Shown here: in pieces, positions 31,520-41,102 of the stretch | How the letters are laid out: each line of letters begins with the position of its first letter | Position numbering within the stretch: position 1 is the first letter of the stretch | NCBI GenBank assembly: GCA_024682375.1 | Contig: JAIKZI010000066.1 | Coordinates: forward strand, 102,624-166,623 | Direction: 5' to 3' | Length of the DNA: 64,000 nt | From: Lachnospiraceae bacterium | GTDB lineage: Bacteria > Bacillota > Clostridia > Lachnospirales > Lachnospiraceae | Program-made: the position numbers and the translations under genes | The notes under the pieces: generated by a model | The model's database searches: none | What the model saw: the letters and a program-made list of their open reading frames with translations, nothing else | Told to the model about the DNA's origin: nothing

Positions 31520-32084
31520 ATTCAAACCATACATCTCTATTTGTAGAGGAAATAGCTGTAGCTCCGGCATTCAAGACTGAATACACATCTTCTTTGTCGC
31601 TAACCAATCCTCCACCTATCACGGGACATTTAACCTTAGAAACAATTTTTGCTACAATCTTTGGCATCAAAGCCGGCATTACCTCAATCACATCAGGCTT
31701 TGCCTGCTTCATCTGCTTCTCTATATTTGATATAGCCATAGAATCAATAACAAAAAATCTCATAACCGTATATAAACCGAGCTCTTTTGCCCGAAGAATA
31801 ACCTGAGATTTTGTTGATATGATTCCCGATGCCCTTGTCTTTGTTTTTATAAAATCAACCGCAACTTCACAAGAGTACAGCCCTGATATCAAATCCACAT
31901 GGACAAAAGCCAGTTTATTCTTTTCATTGATTCTTTCAACTATCGATGGGATTGTAAGAATATCTCCATATAACACAAAAATAATTTTTGCATCACACAA
32001 AAGGCATCTTTCTAATCCTTCGTCATCTTTTATTGCAGCAATAATTGGTGAATCAAACAATGCGTCTTTAAATTGTTCGTTCAT
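31518..32084 (-). CDS. glpP: Glycerol-3-phosphate-responsive antiterminator GlpP
   Basis: SPIIAAIKDDEGLERCLLCDAKIIFVLYGDILTIPSIVERINEKNKLAFVHVDLISGL; VEVMPALMPKIVAKIVSKVKCPVIGGGLVSDKEDVYSVLNAGATAISST. Confidence 0.93.
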   Translation of the reverse strand: MNEQFKDALFDSPIIAAIKDDEGLERCLLCDAKIIFVLYGDILTIPSIVERINEKNKLAFVHVDLISGLYSCEVAVDFIKTKTRASGIISTKSQVILRAKELGLYTVMRFFVIDSMAISNIEKQMKQAKPDVIEVMPALMPKIVAKIVSKVKCPVIGGGLVSDKEDVYSVLNAGATAISSTNRDVWFE

Positions 32085-34789
32085 TTTGCTTCCTCTAACG
32101 CTCTACTCGTATGACAGGTAAAATAGATTATCTGTCTATTGGAAGAGACTCTGTCTAAAAGAGACAACCCCTCTTTTATCTTATCATCATCAAAACTAGT
32201 AAACGGATCATCTAAAAATACAACAGGCTGTTCCTTTTCATACATCGCATCAATAAGAGCAAATCTAACAGAAAGAGAAACCATATCCTTATATCCTTCA
32301 CTCAAATAATCAGTTCCGATTGCTCTGCCTCTGTATTTAAATCGAACTTTCAAATCCATATCCAATTCGAAATCCTTTGAAATTGCACTATTGTCTTTAT
32401 CAGGATACATCTGGTCCAAATAATAAACCATCTTCTTCTGAAGAGGTCCCATATATTCAGCCATAAACTTATCTCTAGCCATCTTCAGATAATCTTTTGC
32501 CGCATCGAGAATCTTTACCTTCTTCTCGTACTGTTTTCTGATCTCCTCCAGTCCGACAATTCTGTCCTTATCATCTTCAAGGCTAACAATCTGATCTGCA
32601 ATATCATTTAGAGTTTCCTGATCCTGATCATAATAATGAAGATTAGTTGCAATCATCTCATCAAGCTGAGCATCTCTCTCCTGTAGTTCCTCAATAGGAG
32701 CATTTAATGTGGAATCAGGCAATTCTTCCTTCAAAGCCAAAATTTCAGAAGTAAGACTCTCAACTTCCTCCTGAAGTGTCAAATATACATTCTGATTCTG
32801 TCTAATTGAAGAAATCTTATCCGTATAATTCCATTCATTAATGTCATCACCTTCTTCCAGAACAGCTTCATAATTATATCGATTTAAAAAGTTTTCAATA
32901 TCGTTTTTCTCTAAATCCACTCGATTCTTAAGAAGTGAAACATTACCTTTTTCCTTATCGTTATCTTTCTTCTTCTTTAAATCTTCCCTCAATTCCTTAA
33001 GAAGGGCAATCTCATTCATCTCATGGTACAAATCCATACCATAACTTTCGGCATAGTTATGAAGTGAAGTATAGAGTGAAAGCTGTTTGGCAGAAAGTTC
33101 CTCGATTGCACCAGAACTCTTTTCCATCATATCGTGGTCTAATTTTTCAAGATGCTCTAGTCTATCAAGTTTTCTCTGTACCTCGTTTACAGCCTCAGTA
33201 ATATCCTCATTTCTTTCAATATCAAATCTATCAAAGAAAGATTTTGAAACTGATTTCAGTTCATCAATTTCTCCACGGACCGCCTCTAATCTATCGACAA
33301 CTTCATTCATTTCTCTAGAAACTCTAGCTTCGCGAAGTTTTTGTGCATTCTTTAAATGAAGTTTTCTAAGTATAAATAAAAGAGCAAAAATTCCTGAAAG
33401 CACTCCAAAGATTATTGAAACAAGCTCTGTATCCCTACCGTCAAACATCAGCAAAAATACAAGCGCACCTACAGCTAAAACGACAGTCAAAATAGAATAC
33501 AAAGTCTCTCTTCCACCTGCATTTGACTTATGATTGTCAATAACATATCGTCTATCGTTTTCTACTTTATCCATATTCTCTAGGATAGCCTTTTCCTGTC
33601 CAGCCAAAGTAGAAATCTGACCTTCAAGCCTGAGCAGATTGGTAATCTCATCATGTTCAGGTCTACCCTTCTGGAAGAACTCGCGGAGCATCTTCATCTC
33701 TCTCTCATCTTCAGGGCCAAGAGTTGAAGAATCTCTCATCATTCGAAGCTCTTTAATTCTATCAGCATCTGCCTGCCAATTATCGATATCTGCTTCGCTA
33801 GGAAGATTTTCGGAAAAAAGATTATCTATCCTATTCTCTTCCTCTTCGGACAAAAGCTCCTTGGTCTTTGATTCAAGACTTCTATTATCAAGGGAATACT
33901 TCTGAATCAACTCATCATATTCATCTATATCTTCATCACTTGGACTGCCATTTACAAAGAACAAATCCAGCTTTGATAATCTCTCATTATCCGAATCTAG
34001 TCTCTCACTCTTTGCCTGAAGAACTCCAGACTTTTCTGCATTCTTCTCTCTTATAGAGATTTCCTTCTTCAGATTAGTCTTCTCCAAACGAAGATCTAAT
34101 ATAGTTGCTTCACGGTTTTTAAAAATCTCCTGCTGAGATCTATAAGCTTCATATAATGGAGGAATCTCTTCCGTCTTTATTTTCAAATCTCTGATTTCAT
34201 CTGAAATCACATCCAGCTTTCCAGGATTATTCTTTCTACGGGATTTTAGAGATTTTCTCGCTTCTTCGATTCTGGCTACTGCTGCCTCAAATTCATCCAA
34301 ATCATCTCTCGTCTGTGAAAGATTTCCCACCTTCGCATTGATTTTATCTGTAATAGAAGTAGAGATATCTGTCTGTCCGATAAAAATTGTTTTTTCAAAA
34401 GATTCCTGATCTACTCCGAAAATTTCTTCTCCCAAATTCTCCGTATATATATCAGTTTCTCTTCCTGTCTCTTCATCGTAAAGTTTAAAAGTATCCTCGC
34501 TACCTTTTTCCCCGAAATATCTTTCTACTCTAAATACACCTTTAGAAGTCTCAAATACCAAACTTCCACCGAAAACACCGCCATCCCACGGCAGGTAGTG
34601 TTTTCTCTCCGTGAGAGATTTAGAATTAGGAGAATATATAAGTCCGTAAAACATCGATTTTATAAATACAGAAAAGGTAGTCTTTCCCCACCCATTCTCT
34701 TCAAAAATCGTATTCAAGCCATCAGAAAATTTATACTCAAAATCTCTAAGTCTTCCGAAGCCTGTAATATAACAGCTCTTCAATATCAT
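32081..34789 (-). CDS. yhaN: YhaN/SbcC-like AAA (SMC-type) ATPase
   Basis: EENGWGKTTFSVFIKSMFYG Walker A; long coiled coils; LSEGYKDMVSLSVRFALIDAMYEKEQPVVFLDDPFTSFDDDKI. Confidence 0.88.
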   Translation of the reverse strand: MILKSCYITGFGRLRDFEYKFSDGLNTIFEENGWGKTTFSVFIKSMFYGLIYSPNSKSLTERKHYLPWDGGVFGGSLVFETSKGVFRVERYFGEKGSEDTFKLYDEETGRETDIYTENLGEEIFGVDQESFEKTIFIGQTDISTSITDKINAKVGNLSQTRDDLDEFEAAVARIEEARKSLKSRRKNNPGKLDVISDEIRDLKIKTEEIPPLYEAYRSQQEIFKNREATILDLRLEKTNLKKEISIREKNAEKSGVLQAKSERLDSDNERLSKLDLFFVNGSPSDEDIDEYDELIQKYSLDNRSLESKTKELLSEEEENRIDNLFSENLPSEADIDNWQADADRIKELRMMRDSSTLGPEDEREMKMLREFFQKGRPEHDEITNLLRLEGQISTLAGQEKAILENMDKVENDRRYVIDNHKSNAGGRETLYSILTVVLAVGALVFLLMFDGRDTELVSIIFGVLSGIFALLFILRKLHLKNAQKLREARVSREMNEVVDRLEAVRGEIDELKSVSKSFFDRFDIERNEDITEAVNEVQRKLDRLEHLEKLDHDMMEKSSGAIEELSAKQLSLYTSLHNYAESYGMDLYHEMNEIALLKELREDLKKKKDNDKEKGNVSLLKNRVDLEKNDIENFLNRYNYEAVLEEGDDINEWNYTDKISSIRQNQNVYLTLQEEVESLTSEILALKEELPDSTLNAPIEELQERDAQLDEMIATNLHYYDQDQETLNDIADQIVSLEDDKDRIVGLEEIRKQYEKKVKILDAAKDYLKMARDKFMAEYMGPLQKKMVYYLDQMYPDKDNSAISKDFELDMDLKVRFKYRGRAIGTDYLSEGYKDMVSLSVRFALIDAMYEKEQPVVFLDDPFTSFDDDKIKEGLSLLDRVSSNRQIIYFTCHTSRALEEAK

Positions 34790-35880
34790 TCTAGAATATC
34801 CTCTCCCAAAATAGCCTTAATTCCAGTCTCTACGATTTCACTCTTCTCTTCCTCATCCAACTCCTGATTCTGAAGAAGTCTTACAAATTCCCCTTTGAGC
34901 GATCTATCATTTTTAAAGCTATCATAATCAATAAACACAGATGTCTGATCTGATACTTTCGAAAAGTAAAATCTGCCATTGAAATTTCTCTTTGCTCTTC
35001 GAATATCGAGATCCATACCAGTCTTTCCTCGCATAACGAACTTCACCAAATCGTCAGCTGGTACATCACTAACTCCTTCTTCCATTGCACTGATAACATT
35101 TGCCATGCTCATTTCGGGAGTTATAGACACCTCGATTTCATGCATAGTACGACGGGCAAATGGAATGAAATTATGAGAAATCTCTCCTTCCGAGATATCA
35201 ATCAATACGAAACCTTTTCTTCCGCACTCATCGAAACCTCTTCCTTCGAGGCAACCGCAATAGCAATACACTCCTCGATCATCCAACTTTTCTTCTGTAA
35301 ATTTATGTATATGGCCAAGTGCCAAATAGTCTATATTTTTTCCTCTAAAATCATCAATACGGATAATCTCATCCTGTGATACATCGCCTGTTACTACCTG
35401 TCCATGTAACATTACGATATTTATACGCGCCGGATCCAAAACCAGGTTACTAGACATAATCGATGCATTCTTATCATTCAATTCACGGCCACAAATTGTT
35501 ACCTCGCCGTCTTCTGAATCATAATTGTACATCGTCCAGGAATCTTCGTTAAAATGCTTGAGATTAGAAGGAATATCCTCTTCCTTCATGTTAGATAGGA
35601 AATCAGCATTGTCATGATTTCCCTTTAGATACAAGAAATCTATATCATCATGATTTCTTATTTCTTCAAGAATTCTATTTCTAGCAGACTTTCTAGTCTG
35701 CGCTCTATCAAAAAGATCACCCGCTATCATGATAACCTTCACCCTGTTTTGCATCGCGTATTCGACCATGCGGGAAAAAGTATCCAAAAGTTCTTCTCTT
35801 CTTTCTCTCGCCTGCTCTCTAGTTAGATTGCTTTCCATTCGCGAATCTAGATGTAAGTCAGCACAGTGAATAATTTTCAA
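34786..35880 (-). CDS. yhaO: YhaO/SbcD-like metallophosphoesterase (DNA repair exonuclease)
   Basis: MKIIHCADLHLDSRM; VIMIAGDLFDR; YLKGNHDNADF; MLHGQV; YLALGHIHKF. Confidence 0.9.
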   Translation of the reverse strand: MKIIHCADLHLDSRMESNLTREQARERREELLDTFSRMVEYAMQNRVKVIMIAGDLFDRAQTRKSARNRILEEIRNHDDIDFLYLKGNHDNADFLSNMKEEDIPSNLKHFNEDSWTMYNYDSEDGEVTICGRELNDKNASIMSSNLVLDPARINIVMLHGQVVTGDVSQDEIIRIDDFRGKNIDYLALGHIHKFTEEKLDDRGVYCYCGCLEGRGFDECGRKGFVLIDISEGEISHNFIPFARRTMHEIEVSITPEMSMANVISAMEEGVSDVPADDLVKFVMRGKTGMDLDIRRAKRNFNGRFYFSKVSDQTSVFIDYDSFKNDRSLKGEFVRLLQNQELDEEEKSEIVETGIKAILGEDILE

Positions 35881-37483: not shown

Positions 37484-37528
37484 AAAAAATCTGTGAGCAG
37501 AATATCTTCTGTTCACAGATTTTTTTAT
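37484..37528. terminator. Bidirectional intrinsic terminator
   Basis: AAAAAATCTGTGAGCAGAA-tatc-TTCTGTTCACAGATTTTTTT. Confidence 0.85.
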
Positions 37529-40008
37529 ATCTTCACTCTTTCAATTTCTAATTCAAACTCTCTGGAAGACATTCTAAGCGCACCAGATCCGAGTACCATT
37601 TTTTGGACCCATCCATCAGACGTTACAACAGTTACATTTTTCTTCTTCGCGCAAAGCCTGGTCACTTCTCTTTCAATATACTGATCTGCCTTCTCATCCT
37701 GTTTTGTAAAAGCGACCTCAATATTATTCATCTTCTGTCTAGAGCCTGTATACCCTTTCAAGCGATAAGCATCATATACAATTGTTATATGAAATCCTGT
37801 ATATCCTTGATAGTTTGAAACGATATCTTCAAGTTTTCCTCTAGCTCCATCCAAATTGATAGCAGCCAGTTCCTTTAAATCTTTCCAGGAATTTATAACA
37901 TTATATCCATCTATAAAAACATATCTCTCATGATCCACTTTTTCTTTCTTATCATACTTAGGATCAGATACTCCCTTCTCCTTTTCTGGCGTATAGATAA
38001 TTGGATCTCGATACCTCTTTATCTCACCATATGTCCTTACAAAGATTTCCTCAAGTTCTTTATCCAGCGCATACATACCCTTATATTCATTTTCATCGTA
38101 TGTACTAGTTTCAAAGCCTCTTACATTTCTATTTTCTATAACTGTATTTTCGTCCTCAGGCCTACCATGGACGTAAATAGATTCATATGGATTTCTAGGA
38201 TCAACCCTATAATCATAATTGCACTCTTCAATGATTGAATCCCCATTATGACAAATATCATAACCACCAGGCTCGACAGAAATCTGTCCCAGTCCACCAG
38301 TATAGGAACGAACTGTGGCATCATAGTCCATAAATTCGTTCACCGGTATCTTTCCATCAATGATACAAAATTCGTTATCCATTTTCTGTTCTAAGACCTG
38401 TCCATGCATCTTCTCTATATCTGTCATTGCACGACCAGTCTTATCAAGAGGCACCTTTATAATGACATCATAATAAGGCTCCATAATTGCACTTTCACCG
38501 TGAATAAGCGCATCTCTTACAGCAATCAGAGTTGCCTTGGAAAAATCTCCACCCTCTGTATGCTTCTTATGCGATTTTCCATCCGTGATAATAAAAATTA
38601 CATCTGTAAGCGGTTTATCTGCAAGAATACCATAAAGTCTAGATCTAAGTTTTCTCTCAATCTGATGCTGGTAATTTATCTCCAAAACATCAGTAGAAAC
38701 TTCTGATTTAACAGAAATTCCACTTCCTCTTTCACCCGGAATCATTTTTATCTTTACATCCGCATAATGTCTTAAAGGTTCAAAATGTCCATGACCATAT
38801 GTCTCCGAAATTATTGTTTCTTTATAGAGCACATCGCTCTGGGAAAAAACAGCCCTGATTTTATACTCTTCAAGAAGACGACTCTCTAAAACTTCTCTTT
38901 GTATGGCGCCCATAAGGCTAACCTTTATCTCATCTGTTCTGACCTCATAGTCAACCTCTAGAGAAGGTTCACTTTCCTCTATCTCTTTTAATGCCACAAG
39001 AAGTGTATGTGATGAGACATCATCTTTTGCTTCTACTTTGTATGAAATAACAGGTTTCAGGATAGGTTCCATTCCATCCTTTTCTTCTCCAAGTCCCATT
39101 CCAGGATAAGTTGTAGATAAACCTGTTACAGCTGCAACTTCACCGGCCTTTAAAGTTTTCACTGTCCCAAATTTTGGACCAGTGTATATTCTTATTTCAT
39201 CTATTTTTTCCCCGGGTAATACTTCATCTCTTACAGATAGTTCACCACCGGTAACCTTTAAAAAGCTAAGTCTCTTTCCGCTTTCATCTCGGCCGATTTT
39301 ATAAACCCTGGCACCGAATTCTTCACTATAAGCTCTGTGACCATAAAATGTCCCTACAAGGGAAAGCAGTCTATCTACGCCTTCTAGTTGGCGCGCGCTT
39401 CCAAAAACGACTGCAGCAGCTTTTCTCGCACGAATTAAAGACTCTATATCTTCTACATCATAGCTTTCAGTCTCTAGATATTTTTCAAGCATCTTATCAT
39501 CAAGTGATACAGCATTTTCCACCCAAGACTCATCATCTGTCATATCAAGAGGTTCGATTAAAAGATTCTTTTTTATATCATCTAAAATAAACTCCCTGGA
39601 ATTATTAGCGATATCCATCTTATTTATGAAGAAAAGAATCGGAACCTCATTTCTTTTTAAGAGTTCAATAATTGTTCTTGTATGACTCTGTACTCCATCT
39701 GTTCCGCTTATAACAACGATCGCTAAATCCAGTACAGAAATAGTTCTTTCAGTCTCACTTGAAAAATCAGTATGACCAGGTGTGTCTAGAATCGTAAGTT
39801 TTAAATCATCTGTTTCTAGATTTGCCTGGGAAGAGTAAATTGTTATTCCTCTTCTTTTTTCCGTCTCATCAAAATCTAAGACAGTATCTTTAGAATCGAC
39901 ACTGCCCAGATTTCTAATTGTATTGCTCTTATATAAAAGCGCTTCAGATAGTGTGGTCTTACCCGCATCTACGTGAGCTAAAATTCCTGTGGTAAGAATC
40001 TTCTTCAA
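37525..40008 (-). CDS. Tet(M)-like translational GTPase fused to a C-terminal YacP/Rae1-type NYN endoribonuclease domain
   Basis: N-terminal ILTTGILAHVDAGKTTLSEALLY, RGITIYSSQ, DTPGHTDFSSETERTISVLDLAIVVISGTDGVQSHTR, NKMD; C-terminal YVFIDGYNVINSWKDL...ITIVYDAYRLKG...FTKQDEKADQYIEREVTRL...VTVVTSDGWVQKMVLGSGALRMSSREFELEIE. Confidence 0.9.
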   Translation of the reverse strand: MKKILTTGILAHVDAGKTTLSEALLYKSNTIRNLGSVDSKDTVLDFDETEKRRGITIYSSQANLETDDLKLTILDTPGHTDFSSETERTISVLDLAIVVISGTDGVQSHTRTIIELLKRNEVPILFFINKMDIANNSREFILDDIKKNLLIEPLDMTDDESWVENAVSLDDKMLEKYLETESYDVEDIESLIRARKAAAVVFGSARQLEGVDRLLSLVGTFYGHRAYSEEFGARVYKIGRDESGKRLSFLKVTGGELSVRDEVLPGEKIDEIRIYTGPKFGTVKTLKAGEVAAVTGLSTTYPGMGLGEEKDGMEPILKPVISYKVEAKDDVSSHTLLVALKEIEESEPSLEVDYEVRTDEIKVSLMGAIQREVLESRLLEEYKIRAVFSQSDVLYKETIISETYGHGHFEPLRHYADVKIKMIPGERGSGISVKSEVSTDVLEINYQHQIERKLRSRLYGILADKPLTDVIFIITDGKSHKKHTEGGDFSKATLIAVRDALIHGESAIMEPYYDVIIKVPLDKTGRAMTDIEKMHGQVLEQKMDNEFCIIDGKIPVNEFMDYDATVRSYTGGLGQISVEPGGYDICHNGDSIIEECNYDYRVDPRNPYESIYVHGRPEDENTVIENRNVRGFETSTYDENEYKGMYALDKELEEIFVRTYGEIKRYRDPIIYTPEKEKGVSDPKYDKKEKVDHERYVFIDGYNVINSWKDLKELAAINLDGARGKLEDIVSNYQGYTGFHITIVYDAYRLKGYTGSRQKMNNIEVAFTKQDEKADQYIEREVTRLCAKKKNVTVVTSDGWVQKMVLGSGALRMSSREFELEIERVKI

Positions 40009-41102
40009 GCTTTCTTTCTCCTACTTCTATATACAAATTCATGCTGAATATAATAACTGATAAAGAACAATGTCACATCGACTATAACCTTCATCACTAC
40101 TTCTAAAGATTCAGCGGTCAAATACACAAGACCTGCTGTAGCTGTTGCACTGATAAACATCTGTATCGCGGCAAGTAGTGCATATTTTACCATTGCAAGT
40201 GTCCTTGACTCTTTGCTTCTAAATACAAAAATATAATTAATCAAAAAGTTATATGTTGCAGAAATCACTCTGGCTTCAATAGCGGAAATAAACACATCAT
40301 AGACGCCGCTGAACAGGCTTTCGTTCACCTGACAAAAAATTGCAAACAATAATATATCAATCACGCATGAAGATAATGATGAAACCAAAAACTTCAAAAA
40401 CATCGCTCCGAAAATTTTGTAGATTCTAATAGAATCCTTAAATGGATCGAAATGAGTTGTATGATTCTCGACTGAATCATATACAGTTTTTATTTCCACT
40501 TCTTCTATGTCGTATTTATCCTTTGTCTCTACAAGCATTTTTGTTTCGAACTCAAATCTATCCCCAGGAACAAAAAGTAATTCATTCATGAATTCTTTTG
40601 AAATTCCACGAAGACCTGTCTGAGTATCAGAAATCGATAAACCGGTAAAAAACTTAAATACTTTTACAGTAATCTTATTTCCTAACCTGCTATTTCTTGG
40701 TACGCTTTTATCATCAAAATCCCTAACTCCAAGAATCAAAGAATTTGGATTTTCTATTAGCGAATTTTTCACCTTCAAAATACAATCCGGAGTATGCTGT
40801 CCATCAGAATCCGCTGTGATAACTCCTATCATATCAGGATAGTTTTCTAGGCAATATGAAAAAGCAGTTTTAAGTGCTTTCCCTTTTCCTCTATTTATAT
40901 CATGTTTTAATATAACTCCGCCCTGGGAAGAAATGATATTTTTTGCTCTAACAAAATATTCATCATATTTTTCATCGCTTCCATCATTTACAATAATAAC
41001 TGGAGATATTTCTCTTTTTACCAAATCCTCTAGTAAATCAATCAGTCTTTCATCCGGCTCATAAGACGGAATAATAATTGGAATCAAATTATTCATAGTC
41101 AA
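40005..41102 (-). CDS. Family 2 glycosyltransferase fused to GtrA-like membrane domain
   Basis: IPIIIPSYEPDERLIDLLEDL...ITADSDGQHTPDCILKV...; C-terminal four-TM GtrA-like region ending YIQHEFVYRSRRKKA. Confidence 0.88.
   Translation of the reverse strand: MTMNNLIPIIIPSYEPDERLIDLLEDLVKREISPVIIVNDGSDEKYDEYFVRAKNIISSQGGVILKHDINRGKGKALKTAFSYCLENYPDMIGVITADSDGQHTPDCILKVKNSLIENPNSLILGVRDFDDKSVPRNSRLGNKITVKVFKFFTGLSISDTQTGLRGISKEFMNELLFVPGDRFEFETKMLVETKDKYDIEEVEIKTVYDSVENHTTHFDPFKDSIRIYKIFGAMFLKFLVSSLSSCVIDILLFAIFCQVNESLFSGVYDVFISAIEARVISATYNFLINYIFVFRSKESRTLAMVKYALLAAIQMFISATATAGLVYLTAESLEVVMKVIVDVTLFFISYYIQHEFVYRSRRKKA

Follow-up and report, generated by a model that had tools for sequence, protein, structure and literature searches.

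The endoribonuclease Rae1 (YacP) of Bacillus subtilis is a stand-alone NYN-family protein of about 170 residues, which cuts mRNA in the ribosomal A site, as stated in two studies that cite Leroy 2017 (PMC6613710, PMC12320835). How it finds the right ribosomes is so far a matter of hypothesis in the literature covered, with stalling supposed to open the A site. A second ribosome-binding protein, Tet(M), contacts C1054 in the drug site through its Pro509 (PMC8161019), and some substitutions in loop III of Tet(M) retain activity (PMC4750697). The two kinds of domain were noted in a single chain by Atkinson 2015 (PMC4342817), where Tet proteins of ten Clostridiales species were reported to have a YacP-like NYN domain and a role in resistance was suggested; the original prediction had rightly guessed that this domain combination was already documented. 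We found no other earlier mention of this architecture, and no functional study of the fusion in the literature searched, with Leroy 2017 and Condon 2018 lying outside that scope. The protein analyzed here shares the architecture of the Atkinson 2015 proteins, but its GTPase, filed there as Tet, is placed by our analysis in a separate subfamily, and its replacement of stand-alone Rae1 is strongly supported. Four points are new here: the GTPase forms a subfamily of its own, the fusion arose once, it took the place of Rae1 and left relics of the old gene at its site, and the Rae1 tail has relaxed.

The fusion is encoded by a single unbroken minus-strand reading frame of 827 residues in the window, by which we mean the whole 64,000-nucleotide stretch of Lachnospiraceae DNA that was analyzed (Table 1). 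Its TTG codon, which overlaps the stop codon of the upstream glycosyltransferase gene, is taken as the start because AGGAG lies 9 nucleotides upstream and because its opening residues, MKKILTTGILAHVDAGKTTL, line up with the beginning of Tet(M). Five domains were recovered above the Pfam cut-offs (GTP_EFTU 2-218, EFG_III 318-388, EFG_IV 392-502, EFG_C 508-588 and NYN_YacP 697-826, the last with E 1e-44 and 152.7 bits against a cut-off of 24.6), with domain II scoring slightly under its cut-off. The G1-G4 motifs, the catalytic histidine and domains III-V are all present, as in the EF-G/EF2 superfamily. Against solved structures the GTPase half matched TetM (E 3e-69) and EF-G (E 2e-57), and the C-terminal 135 residues matched YacP (5mq8/5mq9, E 5e-23). 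An AlphaFold model built with 30 relatives (mean pLDDT 79.7) is confident for the GTPase and the NYN domain and disordered in the 610-692 linker; that of a typical relative, G350 (57 rows, mean 83.5), additionally shows a folded C-terminal extension past domain V, a short linker helix and a full NYN domain. Foldseek returned EF-G, EF-G2 and TetM, and a search of a viral fold library returned generic GTPases only. Reading frame, Pfam, solved structures and AlphaFold thus agree with the original prediction of one 827-residue protein combining a translational GTPase and an NYN domain.

Table 1. Features of the fusion gene and its product, in window coordinates
Feature	Position	Strand	Basis
Fusion gene, 827 aa; TTG start at 40008	37525..40008	-	ORF call and Pfam
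Likely Shine-Dalgarno AGGAG, within 3' end of upstream glycosyltransferase gene	40018..40022	-	sequence
G domain (residues 2-218); P-loop D14/K17, T56, DTPGH 75-79, NKMD 129-132 conserved	39355..40005	-	Pfam, alignment
Domain IV (residues 392-502)	38503..38835	-	Pfam EFG_IV
Domain IV tip loop I, GHGHFEPLRHYADV (residues 405-418); H408, E410, H414	38755..38796	-	alignment
Domain IV tip loop III, GKSHKKHTEGGDF (residues 477-489)	38542..38580	-	alignment
Domain V, EFG_C (residues 508-588)	38245..38487	-	Pfam
Linker (residues 604-692), largely disordered, with the short helix motif ELEEIFVRTYG at about 650-660	37933..38199	-	AlphaFold, alignment
NYN_YacP/Rae1 domain (residues 693-827); active-site D700, D746, D775, D798; Rae1 C-terminal tail absent	37525..37932	-	Pfam, alignment

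The GTPase half has the size and the EF-G-like domain order I-V of Tet(M)/Tet(O), with 28% identity over the aligned structure, but differs from them in score, clade and the tip of domain IV. Against the NCBIfam tet_protect model, which has a curated cut-off of 775 bits, true Tet proteins scored 853 and 892, versus 388 for the window protein, 450 for a typical fused protein, 442 for an unfused relative and 404 for an EF-G control. Whole genomes scored with a profile of the family itself fell into tiers, namely about 800-1127 bits for fused proteins (a few divergent or partial fused matches score lower), about 560-800 for unfused relatives, 340-450 for Tet(M)-like proteins and up to about 224 for EF-G. 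In the tree test, forcing the fused proteins together with Tet(M/O) was rejected (p-AU 4e-42). At the tip, loop I reads GxGH[FY]EPL[RK]H in the fused proteins, as against FWAS in Tet(M/O) and GGRGQYG in EF-G, and loop III reads HxKHTxGGDF, as against YYSPVSTPADF and YHEVDSSEMAF respectively; the window's own loop III, GKSHKKHTEGGDF, has neither the Tet pattern nor Pro509. Five tip residues (H408, E410, H414, H480 and H483) show no or almost no variation across about 115 fused proteins and 22/22 unfused members, and K482, at the position of Tet(M) Pro509, is Lys or Arg in nearly all fused members. The GTPase motifs, the domain order and one tip histidine (H480, which aligns with His573 of Thermus thermophilus EF-G) are shared with EF-G, but the domain IV loops are otherwise dissimilar, and the genomes also carry a canonical EF-G. 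The fusion GTPase further differs from Tet(M)/Tet(O) in having its own conserved C-terminal extension and in being chromosomal and widespread. From these comparisons we conclude that it is a separate EF-G-type subfamily, distinct from both Tet(M)/Tet(O) and EF-G, for which the domain IV tip is diagnostic. The label 'Tet(M)-like' in the original prediction accordingly holds for the EF-G-type fold and overall similarity; beyond these it is unsupported, because clade, cut-off and tip all set the GTPase apart. The tree also contains another clade of unfused EF-G/Tet-like GTPases of about 650-690 residues (L260-L264, L267-L269), sister to Tet(M/O), with the domain IV tip YTMPKPCWAV and HxxHTHPxDF.

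The NYN half belongs to the same family as B. subtilis Rae1 and preserves its active-site acids and the residues around them, but forms the C-terminal part of a protein of 827-1007 residues instead of standing alone. The motifs DGYN, VxDAY, ExADxYIE and TSD are conserved in the window protein, and the four acidic residues that had been predicted to be intact (D700, D746, D775 and D798) do not vary among 101 fused and 47 stand-alone sequences. The description of this domain as complete was slightly too strong, since the C-terminal ~35 residues of Rae1 are missing. Identity in the NYN core is higher in fused than in stand-alone copies (0.61 versus 0.50), whereas in the tail it is lower (0.13 versus 0.30). 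The tail motif LExhR[RKL], which we defined here from stand-alone copies and which is not a published defining feature, occurs in 39/39 stand-alone copies versus 25/100 fused ones (p 8e-18), and is absent from the window protein. In B. subtilis the tail change R166P was selected alongside frameshifts as loss of function (PMC6613710). The Rae1 tail may serve in ribosome docking, a role which the GTPase would since have taken over.

An assembly join or frameshift as the source of the fusion is ruled out, as the same architecture recurs in genomes of the same genus and in more than 100 others. In the window's own genome (1.9 Mb, 85 contigs) the fusion is the sole NYN_YacP protein. Among 28 genomes of the same family outside the genus, about 23 have a fusion-sized frame, four a short stand-alone frame and one none. 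Of 389 Clostridia genomes drawn evenly, 248 had NYN_YacP and 131 a clear fusion, a count that rises to about 135 on adding G178, G252, G387 and two fusions split over contigs. The range of the fusion extends to other classes of the phylum, and a scan of named organisms turned up at least 597 coding stretches with the domain IV signature, the best 80 of which include Hungatella hathewayi, Anaerostipes butyraticus, Desulfosporosinus acididurans and Clostridium punense; each of 7/7 named isolates has one NYN_YacP match over the cut-off, within the fusion. Apparent second NYN copies in G177, G230 and G262 are weak matches under the cut-off. No conserved operon partner or neighborhood was found past close relatives, and PADLOC returned no match of the fusion to known defense systems. 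Downstream of the fusion in the window (32081-35880, minus strand) lie genes for a calcineurin-like phosphoesterase and then a large AAA/SMC-like ATPase, an SbcD/SbcC-like pair that recurs close to the fusion at five loci, the window included.

The phylogeny indicates that the fusion arose once in Clostridia: in the GTPase tree the fused proteins form one clade (support 100/99) adjoining the unfused relatives, and the NYN-only tree, which does not tell whether fused or stand-alone copies branch first, does not reject a single fused clade (AU 0.89). The unfused relatives stop at about 650 residues, right past a C-terminal extension (SVFCxHGAGFxVxWDxVxxYMH) common to unfused and fused proteins, and it is at this point that linker and NYN domain were added; this extension has decayed in the window's genus. 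Domain V and the NYN domain are separated by a median of 111 residues (range 95-202), and the motif ELxxIFxxTY occurs in this region in 72/101 fused proteins. In the form ELxxIFxRTYG (residues ~649-661 and relatives) it is a predicted helix, conserved amid a variable linker, and may be a docking motif.

Several observations strongly support the replacement of stand-alone Rae1 by the fusion. In the 8 genomes (G335 among them) where stand-alone yacP is linked to rlmB, the gene sits in the rlmB-sigH interval, as a rule after mrnC, and intact yacP was found beside rlmB in 0/26 fused genomes checked; sigH is within reach in 19/26 of these, at an interval of 3 to about 750 nucleotides, and in the window's genome the rlmB-sigH place spans 21 nucleotides without yacP. 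At this same place four fused genomes retain relics of yacP, with several stops each in G082 and G154, one stop and a deletion in G421, and only the first 27 residues in G056. G335 has both the fusion and stand-alone yacP intact, the pattern expected of a genome in transition. The stand-alone yacP genes of G263 and G049 lie away from the rlmB-sigH place. The fusion occupies the genomic niche of Rae1, and we are highly confident that it carries the Rae1 activity of its host. The truncated G056 relic (L274, VEYLLVDGYNIIHAWPELKELAEDYLE) looks closer to the fused NYN domains than to other stand-alone copies, and is possibly near the donor of the fusion.

Judging from sequence, the most likely reading, at about an even chance, is that the fusion works as a chromosomal ribosome factor, in which a GTPase of its own subfamily was joined once to Rae1 and took over the role of the stand-alone A-site endoribonuclease. 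About equally balanced is our confidence that the GTPase delivers or gates the nuclease activity. We infer ribosome binding, delivery and cleavage by the fusion in the following order: the GTPase would bind the factor site of a stalled ribosome, where its His-rich domain IV tip would sense or clear the decoding center; GTP hydrolysis would lead to withdrawal of domain IV; and the flexibly tethered NYN domain would enter the vacated A site, or that of a neighboring collided ribosome, and cut the mRNA, the ribosome then being handed on to rescue and decay. Domain IV of EF-G-type factors occupies the same A-site space as Rae1. As a result one A site cannot hold both halves, and delivery would therefore need sequential action or two ribosomes; sequential action would be the simplest scheme, with action on the neighboring ribosome as the alternative. 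More tentatively, the fusion might be a bacterial equivalent, in a single protein, of ribosome surveillance driven by a GTPase; its tip, of a new kind with one Glu and four invariant His, would read or clear the decoding center, and the unfused relatives would act in trans with Rae1. A surveillance or mRNA-cleavage factor, as had been predicted in preference to a resistance protein, is the better reading of this GTPase-Rae1 fusion with its intact active-site residues. As a natural hint at a ribosome GTPase as the partner of Rae1, the fusion can be put to the test in B. subtilis and with purified parts.

Against delivery it can be argued that the two halves could be independent activities on one chain; the window NYN domain lacks the very tail in which R166P behaves as loss of function in B. 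subtilis (PMC6613710). Such a fusion of convenience, joining Rae1 to an unrelated ribosome GTPase, seems less likely to us. Unfused GTPases do occur both in genomes with stand-alone yacP and in six without any detectable NYN_YacP (G085, G088, G113, G126, G233, G339; L242, L244, L247-L250), so that the GTPase does not depend entirely on the nuclease, and the co-occurrence of the two genes is above expectation but moderate (17/23, odds ratio 4, p 0.0035, with kinship not corrected for). However, the NYN tail is relaxed solely in the fusion while the core stays tighter, and the fusion has persisted across dozens of families, the only apparent re-split in the sample (NYN loss in L138) being a draft-genome frameshift.

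That the fusion is instead a ribosomal protection protein with the RNase as part of resistance, along the lines of Atkinson 2015 (PMC4342817), we regard as improbable. The similarity to TetM is clear overall, RefSeq labels relatives as TetM/TetW/TetO/TetS family, and loop differences alone do not exclude resistance, because some Tet(M) loop III substitutions retain activity (PMC4750697). Nevertheless, the 388-450 bits are far from the 775 cut-off and no closer than EF-G, the joint clade with Tet(M/O) is rejected, the Pro509 position (PMC8161019) holds Lys, and the fusion is a widespread chromosomal gene in a neighborhood neither conserved nor mobile, which replaces a housekeeping gene; clade, cut-offs and neighborhood together rule out a mobile resistance gene. 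Equally doubtful is a nuclease for rRNA or ribosome maturation, taken by the GTPase to ribosomal particles and not to mRNA, since the activity known for Rae1 from experiment is A-site mRNA cleavage (PMC6613710, PMC12320835), even though stand-alone yacP adjoins rlmB and mrnC, mutations in yacO (rlmB) and rae1 fall into one pathway (PMC6613710), and NYN/YacP proteins were formerly proposed for rRNA/tRNA maturation (as cited in PMC4342817).

The fusion is thus a real, widespread and misnamed protein, which RefSeq calls either 'translation factor GTPase family protein' or a TetM/TetW/TetO/TetS family member. In Agathobacter rectalis and other gut commensals a housekeeping factor is in this way labelled a tetracycline-resistance protein, and resistome counts would therefore be inflated. 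Two members sit on large plasmids, a fused one in A. rectalis (L282, NZ_CP143948.1) and an unfused one on a Ligilactobacillus salivarius megaplasmid (L281, NZ_CP020859.1), the latter with loop I present and the standard loop III pattern absent; both carry the annotation TetM/TetW/TetO/TetS family tetracycline resistance and are probably misnamed. A full-length relative of the fusion is also encoded on each of two unannotated human-faeces contigs deposited as 'Bacteriophage sp.' (MT835563.1, 5421-7964; MT835514.1, 15294-17762), which are possibly bacterial DNA.
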